Shown one piece after another: positions 14,012-19,220 of a DNA stretch of 64,000 nucleotides (positions are counted from its first letter, which is position 1; each line of letters begins with the position of its first letter). The stretch spans positions 558,001-622,000 of the forward strand of contig NZ_NEVL01000003.1 in the NCBI RefSeq assembly GCF_002261335.1. The letters are read 5' to 3'. A model generated the notes under the pieces. That model did not search any database. It had not been told where the DNA came from and worked only from the letters and a program-made list of their open reading frames with translations. The position numbers and the translations under genes were made by a program. Source of the stretch: Bordetella genomosp. 1 (lineage in GTDB: Bacteria > Pseudomonadota > Gammaproteobacteria > Burkholderiales > Burkholderiaceae_B).

Positions 14012-14409
14012 GTTTTCAGTGCGCGAGCACGCAAGAGGAGAGAAACCGGGGCGCCGGGCGAAGGCCACTCTGGCCGTCAAGTCGGGGATGCCGCGCGGCC
14101 GGCCGCGACGGCATTGGGCCGCCGGCCCATGGCCGCGGCGCGGATCCGCACGAAGGCGCCGAATCCGGGATTATATCGGCACCCGCGCGATCGGATCGCG
14201 CTGCGGGCCGGTGGGCGGCCTGCGGTTGGCGGGTTCGATCGGGGGGGAGCAGGTGTCGCGCTTGCCGTTCGCCGGACCGAGTTTGCTTGCGAGCTGCGCG
14301 GTTCTCGCCTGCGCGAGAGCACGTTCATACGGAAACGGGCGTCCGGCGTGACGCACCAACGAGCCGTTTGCACACGCGCCGGTCCGCGTCAGGGGCTCTA
14401 CGGGAAACA
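14012..14409. other. Intergenic stretch without a gene
   Basis: No coding frame here has a start, ribosome binding site or recognisable product. It should contain the promoter of the amino-acid importer. It leads into the largest repeat cluster. Confidence 0.5.
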
Positions 14410-14902
14410 GTCTTACTGGTGTCAGACTGCAATTTCTCGCTGGCGTCACCCCACAACTCCCAGCGTTCGCACCCAGCCTGGACGATCGTCCTATCGGTGT
14501 CAGACTGCAATTTCCGAGGAGCGCGTTCCGACCGGTGTGAGAAGGCCCGGCGGGCGGCTTCTCGCTGTCGAGCCACGGATTGGCGGTAGTCCTACTGGTG
14601 TCAGACTGCATTTTCCCGGCGAAGAAATTGCAGTCTGACACCTTTGTTGGGTGAGCCGCGCGGCGGGTCTGCCAGGCGACGATCCCGCAGGTGGCGGATA
14701 TCAAAAATGCAGTCTGACACCTTTGTTTGGCACGCCACCCTTCCCCCTCGACATGGTCTTTCGTGGGCGGTGGCAGTCGAAAAAATGCAGTCTGACACCT
14801 TTGATTTTGGACCGGGCTACCGTCTTACCGGTGTCAGACTGCATTTTTCGGCGTGGAAATTGCAGTCTGACACCTTTTTAAAAATGCAGTCTGACACCTT
14901 TG
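14410..14902. repeat. Repeat cluster 3: nine copies of the GGTGTCAGACTGCA element
   Basis: Forward copies are at about 14417, 14495, 14596 and 14828. Reverse copies are at 14625, 14703, 14781, 14857 and 14881. A degenerate forward copy lies near 14532. All four good forward copies carry an extra upstream box, GTCYTAYY, which is missing from the clusters at 3 and 5 kb. Four reverse copies (14625, 14703, 14781, 14857) are spaced 75-79 bp apart, and the first two forward copies are 78 bp apart. Two head-to-head pairs (14596/14625 and 14828/14857) have nearly identical 8-10 bp centres and could fold as 18-bp hairpins. Confidence 0.92.
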
Positions 14903-16683: not shown

Positions 16684-16752
16684 ATGCAAAAGTTCACAGA
16701 ATTCCTATCCAGATCAACGACATACCGCCGTAATCAAACCTCAGATCTCTGA
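16684..16752 (+). CDS. Possible 22-residue small protein
   Basis: ATG at 16684 is preceded by a very strong ribosome binding site (GGAGGGG, 5-7 bases upstream). It opens a 22-codon frame beginning MQKFTEFLSRSTTYRR. Codon use is unlike the neighbours (CTA, AGA, TCA, ACA), and the frame is AT-rich. It overlaps the last 19 bases of the convergent KfrA-like gene. No relatives are recognised, and it may be fortuitous. Confidence 0.3.
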   Translation: MQKFTEFLSRSTTYRRNQTSDL

Positions 16753-17813
16753 CCTGATTTCTTAGGTTTGACAGGCGTTCGGCCGGCCAGCAACTGCTCG
16801 ATCTGGCGGTCGCGCGACGCGAGCTGCGCCTCCATCCGGGCGCACTGGGCCGTGAGATCGTCGAGCCGCGCCTGGGTCATCGCCTGCAGCGCGGCGGCGC
16901 TCTCCACGTCGGCTCGCGCCTGCCGCGCGGCCTGTTCGGCCAGGCCGCGGGCGCCGACCAGCTCCGCCTGCAGACCGTTGCGCTCGCCCTGCCATTGCAG
17001 TTGTTGCTCGCGCAACATGGCGCGGCCGGCGTTCTGCGCCTCCACGATCGCCTTCTCAGCGGCGGCAAGCCGCTCCTCCGCCTGCGCCAGCGCCCGGCGC
17101 AACTGCTGCTGCTCCTGGCGCGCGGCTTCGGCCTCTTCCTGCGAACGGCGCAACGCCTGGCGCTGGGCATCCAGATCACCCAGCCAGCGCCGCTCGTGCG
17201 ACGCGTGACGCTCCTGCTCCGCGGCCAATGCCTGGGCATGGGACTGTGTCTGCTCGCGCAACTGGTCGGCCAGGGCCTTGCGGTCTGCCTCCAGCGCCTG
17301 CTGGCCTTGCACCAGCTCGGCGCGCTCGATGCGCGCCTGCGCCAACGCGTCGCGCAGCTGCGACTGGGCCTCCCCGAGCCGCGCGTCGGCTGCCTGGGTC
17401 AGCGCCAGCGCGTCGCGGGCCCGCGCCTCCAGCTCCTGGGCGCGGGCTTGCAGCAGCAGGCGCTCCTGCAGCAGCTCGTGTTCGCGCTCATCCAGGGCAG
17501 AGCGGGCCTGCACCAGCGCCAGACGCTCGTCGGCCACGGTGTGTGCCCATTCGTCTTGCGCGGCCTCGAGCGCCATCTGCCAGACCTGCGTCACGGCCTT
17601 GGCGACGGGCTCGGGCACGGCGGCGCCGGGCGTGTGCTGCCCCGCCAGACGCGCGCCCAGGTTGCGGAACCACGACTTCAGCATCGGGCCGACCGTATTG
17701 GGCGACCCCCGGCCGAGCTTGAGCCGAACCCGCTCGATGGTGGGCTGATCGCCCTCCATCAGCAGCGCGTCGGCCGCCTGCCACACATCCTGCTCCTGTA
17801 CGCCCTGCGCCAT
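16734..17813 (-). CDS. KfrA-like coiled-coil DNA-binding protein
   Basis: The 359-residue protein has an N-terminal KfrA_N-type DNA-binding domain (residues 1-110, with VWQAADALLMEGDQPTIERV and GRGSPNTVGPMLKSW). A very long Ala/Gln/Glu/Arg-rich coiled coil follows to about residue 340, then a short basic tail. The ATG at 17811-17813 has GGGAGG five bases upstream and is preferred over a TTG at 17879. Plasmid KfrA proteins are architectural repressors that bind their own operator and help partitioning. Here the gene is divergent from a tyrosine recombinase gene across a block of palindromes and is not accompanied by plasmid replication or par genes. Confidence 0.8.
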   Translation of the reverse strand: MAQGVQEQDVWQAADALLMEGDQPTIERVRLKLGRGSPNTVGPMLKSWFRNLGARLAGQHTPGAAVPEPVAKAVTQVWQMALEAAQDEWAHTVADERLALVQARSALDEREHELLQERLLLQARAQELEARARDALALTQAADARLGEAQSQLRDALAQARIERAELVQGQQALEADRKALADQLREQTQSHAQALAAEQERHASHERRWLGDLDAQRQALRRSQEEAEAARQEQQQLRRALAQAEERLAAAEKAIVEAQNAGRAMLREQQLQWQGERNGLQAELVGARGLAEQAARQARADVESAAALQAMTQARLDDLTAQCARMEAQLASRDRQIEQLLAGRTPVKPKKSGQRSEV

Positions 17814-17883
17814 CTCGGCCTCCCAATGTGCCGTTTGCCGGGCGCGCGCAATCGGCGACGCCCCTGATTCGATTGCCAAGCCG

Positions 17884-17922
17884 AAATAAGCGCGGATAAT
17901 CGAAGGTTATCCGACCTTATTT
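17884..17922. promoter_or_regulatory. Nested dyad operator candidate, KfrA side
   Basis: Two inverted repeats share one centre (17903). The inner arms are CGGATAA (17893-17899) and TTATCCG (17907-17913). The outer arms are AAATAAG (17884-17890) and CTTATTT (17916-17922). The whole 39-bp dyad lies 71 bp upstream of the KfrA start, in an AT-rich pocket. KfrA proteins typically bind such sites at their own promoter. Confidence 0.7.
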
Positions 17923-17928
17923 GGCTAC

Positions 17929-17951
17929 TACGTATTATTTAATACGTATTA
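17929..17951. promoter_or_regulatory. Perfect 20-bp palindrome plus direct repeat at the recombinase promoter
   Basis: TACGTATTATTTAATACGTA (17929-17948) is a perfect palindrome with 9-bp arms. The half-site TACGTATTA recurs directly at 17943-17951, overlapping the second arm and ending 4 bp before the recombinase ATG at 17955. This could be an operator for KfrA or the recombinase, or a recombinase binding core. Confidence 0.7.
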
Positions 17952-17954
17952 TGT

Positions 17955-19220
17955 ATGATCTTAGACAATATGGCGCAGCCGTCTGACGAAAAGCCATCCG
18001 AAACGCCGAAAAACCGTGGCGAAAACGCGCCGGGCGCACCCCAGCGCCTCGAAGGCGGGATCGAACCCTCGGCCGGCCCCACGGCGACCCCGGGGCCTCC
18101 CCTCCCCGCCGCCCCGGCGCCCACCGCTGCGCAGCCCGCACCGGCCGAACGGCAGGCCTACGCCCTGCTGGCCGACGCCTCGCCCGGCGTGCGCGCGCTA
18201 CTGCGCGAAGGCGCCTCCGAAAACACGGCCAACGCCTATCGCGCCGCGATCCAGTATTGGTCTGCCTGGCACGCGCTGCGCGTGGGCGCGCCCATGCGGC
18301 TGCCGGTCAGCGGCGAGGCGGTGCTGCGGTTCGTGGCCGATCATCTCGAGCACGCCGGGGTCGACGGCCTGACACATGAGCTGCCGGCAGAAATCGATGC
18401 CGCCCTGGTGGCGCAGCGCGTGAAGCGACGCGCCGGGCCACTGAGCCTCGCAACGGTGCGGCATCGGCTCGCGGTGCTGTCGGAGGCCCACGAAGCGCGT
18501 GCGCTGCCCAATCCGTGCCGCGACCGCGCCGTCCAGATCCTGATGGCGCGGGCGCGCAACGCCTATGCGCGTCGCGGCGTGCAGCCGGCGCGCAAGGCGG
18601 CACTCACGCGCGAACCGCTGGAGCGGATCCTGGCCACCTGCGATGGGTCGTTGATCGGCCTGCGCGACCGCGCGCTGCTGTTGTTCGCCTGGGCCAGCGG
18701 CGGGCGACGCCGCTCGGAGGTGGTGCGCGCCACCTTTGCCAACACGGTGCGCACGACCGAAGGCTGGCAATACATGCTGACGCACAGCAAGACCAACCAA
18801 AGCGGCGCGGTGCGCGCCGACATGGTCAAGCCGATCGTGGGCCGGGCCGCGCAGGCACTGGATGCGTGGCTGACCGCGGCGGGCCTGCGCGAAGGCGCCC
18901 TGTTTCGCCGCGTCCTGAAGGGGGGCCACGTGGGTGGGCCGCTGTCGGCCGAGGCAGTGCGCCGCATCGTCCAGGCGCGCTGCGCGCAGGCCGGACTGGA
19001 GGGCGACTACGCCGCACACAGCCTGCGCTCCGGCTACGTGACCGAAGCGGGCCGCGCCGGCGTGCCGATGGCCGAGGTCATGGCCATGACCGGCCACGCC
19101 AGTGTCACCAGCGTGGCCAGCTACCACCGCGCGGGGGCGGTCGGCGCCTCGCGTGCGGCGCGGCTGCTGGAGGATGCGGACGACGCGCCCCTCACCCGCG
19201 CGCCAACGCCGCCCGGCTGA
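17955..19220 (+). CDS. Tyrosine recombinase / site-specific integrase
   Basis: The 421-residue protein has a Pro/Ala-rich N-terminal extension (about 1-75), a core-binding SAM-like domain (about 78-205) and a catalytic domain. All active-site residues are visible: Arg253 in RRRSE, Lys279, His355 and Arg358 in HSLRSG, His381 in TGHAS and the nucleophile Tyr390. It should therefore be active. A second start (ATG at 17970) is possible; neither has a ribosome binding site. There is no excisionase, phage gene or obvious attachment site beside it. Its only consistent partner is the divergent KfrA-like gene. Confidence 0.88.
   Translation: MILDNMAQPSDEKPSETPKNRGENAPGAPQRLEGGIEPSAGPTATPGPPLPAAPAPTAAQPAPAERQAYALLADASPGVRALLREGASENTANAYRAAIQYWSAWHALRVGAPMRLPVSGEAVLRFVADHLEHAGVDGLTHELPAEIDAALVAQRVKRRAGPLSLATVRHRLAVLSEAHEARALPNPCRDRAVQILMARARNAYARRGVQPARKAALTREPLERILATCDGSLIGLRDRALLLFAWASGGRRRSEVVRATFANTVRTTEGWQYMLTHSKTNQSGAVRADMVKPIVGRAAQALDAWLTAAGLREGALFRRVLKGGHVGGPLSAEAVRRIVQARCAQAGLEGDYAAHSLRSGYVTEAGRAGVPMAEVMAMTGHASVTSVASYHRAGAVGASRAARLLEDADDAPLTRAPTPPG

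Follow-up and report, generated by a model that had tools for sequence, protein, structure and literature searches.

Why would a bacterial genome that has XerC-like and XerD-like genes and a dif site carry, in addition, a Cre-like tyrosine recombinase beside a KfrA protein, a type of protein known from plasmid stability? The question is raised by a locus in a 64-kb window of Bordetella genomosp. 1 (contig NZ_NEVL01000003.1, positions 558,001 to 622,000; the window is the whole stretch of 64,000 nucleotides analysed here and belongs to a 5.6-Mb genome in seven contigs), in which a kfrA-like gene and a recombinase gene diverge from start codons lying 141 bp apart and enclose a dyad and an AT-rich array (Table 1). 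We suggest, with a probability of about 0.5, that this locus is a plasmid-type, Cre/lox-like dimer-resolution cassette that is kept at the chromosome terminus near dif and is controlled by KfrA. The observations behind this proposal are the kinship of the recombinase with Cre, the conservation and symmetry of the dyad, the nearness of the locus to dif and purifying selection on both genes.

Judged by its sequence, the recombinase is Cre-like, with P1 Cre and not XerC or XerD as its closest solved relative. Among proteins with solved structures, which are what the comparison covers, P1 Cre is the best match of the single sequence (phmmer, E 1.4e-10, residues 159-409), and with a profile of 20 relatives the matches to Cre and its variants reach about 6e-20, the next non-Cre protein, which is XerC-like, coming at 1.4e-7. 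The curated XerC and XerD models are missed (42.7 bits against a cut-off of 335.15 and 40.2 against 329.6, respectively), while Pfam assigns the generic integrase domain Phage_integrase (E 1.9e-17). The catalytic set R252, K279, H355, R358, H381 and Y390 is complete, R252 being assigned from the alignment with Cre; residues R251 to R253 and the other five are invariant in all 33 aligned rows, and the catalytic set is also present in 20 of 20 sequences. The divergent partner matches Pfam KfrA_N over residues 7-129 (E 2.8e-24), and each of the two proteins has a single match in its own genome at E 0.001. An earlier, sequence-only reading of the window had described this locus, and the description holds with small corrections. 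Its distance of about 140 bp between the starts and its 39-bp dyad, whose 16-nt arms are 88% complementary and separated by 7 nt, are borne out, and so are its catalytic residues except for Arg253, since it is R252 that aligns with the catalytic arginine of Cre. An adjoining 20-bp palindrome, which it had called perfect, is imperfect: 9-bp perfect arms flank a non-palindromic TT, and the extended arms of 12 nt are 92% complementary. It had noticed neither that the recombinase is related to Cre nor that the locus lies near dif.

Table 1. Coordinates of the cassette within the 64-kb window
Feature	Position	Strand	Details
KfrA-like gene	16734-17813	(-)	359 aa, counted from the ATG preceded by GGGAGG; N-terminal KfrA DNA-binding domain and long helical tail
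Putative lox-like recombination core	17884-17922		arm 17884-17899, spacer TCGAAGG 17900-17906, arm 17907-17922
Putative KfrA operator	17929-17956		heptads TACGTAT / TATTTAA / TACGTAT / TATGTAT; extends to the recombinase start codon
Cre-like tyrosine recombinase gene	17955-19220	(+)	421 aa; alternative possible start ATG at 17970

What would such a recombinase act on? Tyrosine-recombinase crossover sites are built of symmetric arms around a directional spacer, and the dyad looks like a core site of this kind. In the window there is a single GATAA-N7-TTATC, against 0.00 expected from shuffles, and the exact GGATAA-N7-TTATCCG core is present at one place in the genome. At 29 loci with kfrA located upstream, inverted arms flanking 7 bp are visible by eye, as GGATAA-N7-TTATCC in the closer kin of the window and as CGATAA-N7-TTATCG in most of the others; the dyad of pQBR103 has a variant right arm. 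In an alignment of 94 distinct 39-mers the ten GATAA/TTATC positions were preset by the search pattern and thus carry no information on conservation. Among the remaining positions, the outer TTA/TAA triplets show conservation, the pair at ±9 is complementary in 89 of the 94 against 55.4 expected from the columns, and the centre of the spacer is asymmetric (G in 70 and A in 85 of the 94). The core also accompanies recombinases that have no detectable KfrA. It lies beside three such genes among the named loci (L104, L126, L148), two of which, the Variovorax loci L104 and L126, show no heptad array by eye, and in L104 a DUF480 protein occupies the upstream position; phage Dfl-JY45 and a Bosea plasmid likewise have recombinase and core, and the two proteins checked upstream in each of them lack a KfrA domain. 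A Methylorubrum megaplasmid carries a perfect dyad with a 6-bp spacer. As a conserved element beside the recombinase gene, the core is its likely substrate.

The AT-rich array that follows the core seems to belong to the other protein. TACGTATTA, with up to one mismatch, has five matches in the window, four of them at this locus, where 0.30 would be expected, and over 95 distinct regions the array is periodic with a repeat of 7 bp: compared with mononucleotide shuffles, z is 20 at a lag of 7, 14 at a lag of 14 and 11 at a lag of 21. The TACGTATTA palindrome is part of this periodic array, which is of the type bound by KfrA proteins: according to the available part of PMC7783346, RA3 KfrA binds five iterated 9-nt TGTATTGTA repeats around its promoter and RK2 KfrA binds an imperfect 24-nt palindrome. 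We infer that the heptad array is the operator of KfrA. Some of these arrays (for example L087:3346 and L103:3320) are weakly dif-like, scoring 19-27 in the dif matrix introduced below, which is probably a chance effect of AT-rich sequence, the alternative being shared recognition.

How widely is this arrangement conserved? Both genes, with kfrA as the divergent partner, are found in 11 of the 15 genomes of the genus, and in two others (G006, G008) neither recombinase nor kfrA nor core was found. A set of 80 named loci, some of which are the same places as loci known from the genome searches, was reduced to 75 by dropping five with less than 500 bp of upstream sequence; of these 75, 66 have a divergent kfrA, 61 the exact core and 58 both, the core only being found at three and kfrA only at eight, six of them with a looser core. 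With duplicates included, the core pattern lies at most 800 bp away in 111 of 133 recombinase loci. The cassette occurs on large plasmids, too; in Variovorax WDL1 plasmid 3 (L183) the recombinase is present, and core and KfrA were not found upstream. Both genes are under purifying selection, with dN/dS values of 0.06-0.21 for the recombinase (ten pairs) and 0.13-0.33 for kfrA (seven pairs). In a quick tree without bootstrap, 116 distinct recombinases mostly track the families of their hosts, with plasmid copies nested among them; the genus of the window appears at three separate places, and several long branches leave parts of the tree unsure. Within the genus the genes in the surrounding 20 kb form several distinct neighbourhoods, as seen with a rough gene caller.

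The sequence-only reading had suggested that the pair could be a self-contained locus whose recombinase, controlled or assisted by the coiled-coil protein, acts elsewhere on the chromosome, and this interpretation is supported in part. The pair is indeed conserved and self-contained, and its palindromes are conserved as well; the neighbouring genes differ between lineages of the genus. Action elsewhere has become less likely, since the core adjoins the gene, has one exact copy in the genome and is kept where KfrA is missing, and the pair cannot be called specifically chromosomal, given the plasmid copies. A sporadic occurrence, which that reading had named as speaking against itself, is approached at the level of the order, where 13 of 399 genomes, six from the family, have the recombinase at E 1e-50; within the genus it is not.

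Where, then, does the cassette sit on the chromosome? A dif site has been published for B. pertussis (PMC2731167, cited here and below for its available part), and a B. pertussis-like dif occurs once in the genome of the window, on the same contig as the recombinase and 161 kb away from it. A sample of 200 genomes of the family gave 39 recombinase matches at 1e-30, one of them (G076) a decayed fragment, and together with G005 and G009 from the search of the genus this makes 41 positive genomes. In 36 of them dif lies on the same contig, always at most 175 kb away and in 33 cases with the recombinase on the same strand and side relative to dif; in four (G148, G172, G181, G202) it lies on another contig, and in one (G029) it was not found. 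Draft contigs favour short distances, a bias of which complete chromosomes are free; in all eight of these, recombinase and dif are 0.3-4.1% of the half-chromosome apart. For 49 other integrases from ten genomes with a chromosome-sized contig the values are 15.8-99.8%, none being under 6%; in this comparison five lengths are rounded, and XerC and XerD were taken to be the two best integrase matches of each genome.

A dif matrix built on five published sites extends the picture. Scores of at least 30 within 3.5 kb are found at 11 of the 80 named loci, ten of them titled Polaromonas, Variovorax, Rhodoferax, Acidovorax or Limnohabitans, and additionally in G517 and G372, while shuffled loci give 1.3 matches per set at the lower threshold of 19; the sites of L104 and L123 were also recovered by a pattern search. 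In eight loci (L097, L115, L117, L123, L128, L130 and, from genomes of the family, G139 and G025) dif lies 50-226 bp behind the end of kfrA, and in four (L112, L129, L138, G191) 530-971 bp behind it. The pattern search places dif at 10 kb in Comamonas sp. B21-038 and at 9 kb in Dyella jiangningensis; in C. testosteroni the distance between the core and a weaker dif-like site, which scores 28.2, is 1.1 kb. Outside the family the usual polarity is seen in 12 of 16 cases. The same pattern search gave no match at all in 9 of the 15 genomes that it covered, and no dif scoring at least 22 was seen near the module in five plasmid stretches. On chromosomes of Alcaligenaceae and Comamonadaceae the cassette tends to be found in the neighbourhood of dif; outside the family this proximity holds in part. 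In G076, which is without an intact copy, a short recombinase fragment with stop codons (G076:C12:279074-279543) lies about 0.1 kb from dif.

But what could a Cre-like recombinase do at this place? It would act as a homotetramer on two copies of the core beside its gene, the usual partner being the sister copy. With one core per chromosome the sister cores are natural partners, so that recombination between them would resolve dimers and, in parallel with XerCD/dif, convert a chromosome dimer or entangled sister termini into two monomers. A dimer-resolving site would be useful in the terminus region, the part of the chromosome that the cassette tends to occupy. KfrA would bind the heptad array and repress the recombinase gene, and its tail may hold sister sites together, KfrA of plasmids R751 and RA3 being reported to form filaments on operator DNA (PMC7821693, available part). 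The position of the cassette hints at a second, hitherto unrecognised route of sister-chromosome separation. That many Burkholderiales possess such a second terminus system beside dif, in which a filament-forming KfrA represses the recombinase and pairs sister termini in parallel to XerCD/FtsK, we regard as a tentative extension, possible rather than probable.

Several observations weigh against the proposal. The spacer of the dyad has 7 bp and not the 8 bp of loxP. The distribution is patchy at the level of the order, and six of the 75 named loci have neither core nor kfrA nearby. Core and kfrA remain together but are 2-63 kb away from the recombinase in seven genomes of the family (G060, G089, G111, G130, G146, G148, G197) and in C. 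testosteroni (G286), so that the recombinase would have to act in trans there; displaced recombinases show dN/dS values of 0.06-0.07 in the three pairs measured. The polarity relative to dif is broken in the family by G060, G041 and G076 and outside it by L123, G517, C. testosteroni and Dyella. In Burkholderiaceae, five Pandoraea genomes (G587, G588, G589, G594, G595) and the 2.36-Mb contig of G453, which has the size of a second replicon, showed no dif scoring at least 26 in the 40 kb around the module, with a matrix that rests on five published sites. The genomes are related, and the p-value of 1e-9 and the independence of the terminus statistics are therefore overstated. Moreover, the distance of 161 kb in the genome of the window exceeds the activity zone of E. 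coli dif, which measures roughly 30 kb, and 14.2% of dif sites are known to have integrase and transposase genes at their flanks (PMC2731167).

The main rival is that the cassette is a plasmid-derived relic or passenger: a multimer-resolution module that entered the chromosome beside dif, perhaps by way of XerCD, and whose role is limited to its own upkeep. The same module on large plasmids, its patchy distribution and the decayed fragment next to dif in G076 are in line with this, as are a location near dif with preferred polarity, which is what one would expect of an element inserted there, and the gathering of mobile DNA in terminus regions (PMC2731167). Position and polarity alone do not separate a relic from the dimer-resolution cassette, whereas selection on both genes favours function. 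In addition, the recombinase tree mostly tracks host families, within the limits of a quick tree, the plasmid stretches show no dif near the module, and no second dif was found around it, there being one in the genome of the window and one strong dif per compact locus within 3.5 kb, although decayed copies could be missed at the thresholds used. We therefore consider a relic unlikely, if a good deal less so than the explanations that follow. An Xer-exploiting integrated element (IMEX) is not supported, as a pair of flanking dif sites was found neither in the genome of the window nor, within 3.5 kb and at the thresholds used, at the compact loci.

A further rival sees in the dyad a regulatory element, either an operator of KfrA or a terminator, and places the true recombinase substrate elsewhere. 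The dyad and the array do stay with kfrA where the recombinase is displaced, RK2 KfrA binds a palindrome, and a terminator scan marks both strands. However, the dyad is also present beside the recombinases without detectable KfrA, its arms enclose a conserved asymmetric spacer, and there is a separate iterated array which by eye is missing in L104 and L126, just where KfrA is missing; we find a regulatory dyad improbable. As a terminator alone the dyad was rejected, since it stands where two divergent genes begin, is conserved and has an asymmetric spacer. Most improbable of all is that the recombinase is the integrase of a genomic island with the core as its attachment site. A tyrosine recombinase with an adjacent core, and the 2-63 kb between the two in some genomes, would fit, but the exact core is at one place in the genome and not duplicated as attL and attR. 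A search for GGATAA-N7-TTATCCG matched 21 recombinase-positive genomes of the family, two of them (G003, G010) with one extra match, against any match in 5 of 161 negative genomes; with a single site at the locus in the 21 genomes, no attL/attR pair was seen.

Compared with known systems, the proposed dimer-resolution cassette is most like Cre/loxP of the phage-plasmid P1, to which it is tied by its closest solved relative, a single recombinase, an adjacent two-arm site with asymmetric spacer and relatives on plasmids; it differs in its 7-bp spacer, the linked KfrA, the chromosomal location near dif and its fixation in many lineages. With XerCD/dif it shares the terminus location, a single site per chromosome and a tyrosine recombinase, yet the protein scores far below the XerC and XerD cut-offs, the arms are symmetric, the site has another sequence, and the cassette occurs in addition to XerCD/dif. 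In the usual picture each chromosome has one Xer-type system for resolving dimers, and laboratory replacements of dif by loxP exist. If the proposal is correct, at least two bacterial families would keep near dif a Cre-like resolver that has its own site, a natural counterpart of these replacements; KfrA would gain a chromosomal role, and a plasmid-maintenance module would have been turned into chromosome-segregation machinery. It would also provide many pairs of recombinase and site in which the genome sequence itself shows the target. Single-recombinase XerS/difSL systems, as far as described in the available part of PMC2731167, also have a chromosomal recombinase gene adjoining its own site, but the present recombinase is Cre-like and not Xer-like, has a KfrA partner and coexists with XerCD/dif. 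With KfrA of RA3 and R751 (PMC7783346 and PMC7821693, available parts) the protein has in common the KfrA_N domain, a helical tail and iterated AT-rich promoter repeats, and it differs in the 7-bp period in place of 9-nt repeats, the divergent recombinase and the chromosomal copy. A literature search, with most subscription papers outside its reach, found no description of this cassette.

A few observations concern single loci. The recombinase of L114, titled Pantoea sp. 18069 (Erwiniaceae), groups with those of Comamonas and kin, possibly through contamination or transfer. On a 319,548-base contig (G249 C2) there are two recombinase copies, at 148038 and 293926, with the core pattern in each of the two 20-kb stretches. 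In G139 (L064:6479-14709) an insert of about 8 kb with inverted repeats at both ends, which we take to resemble those of Tn3-family transposons, lies in the N-terminal part of the recombinase gene. In the window itself, positions 14401-14901 hold nine copies of GGTGTCAGACTGCA(A/T)TTT in about 500 bp, four in one orientation and five in the other.

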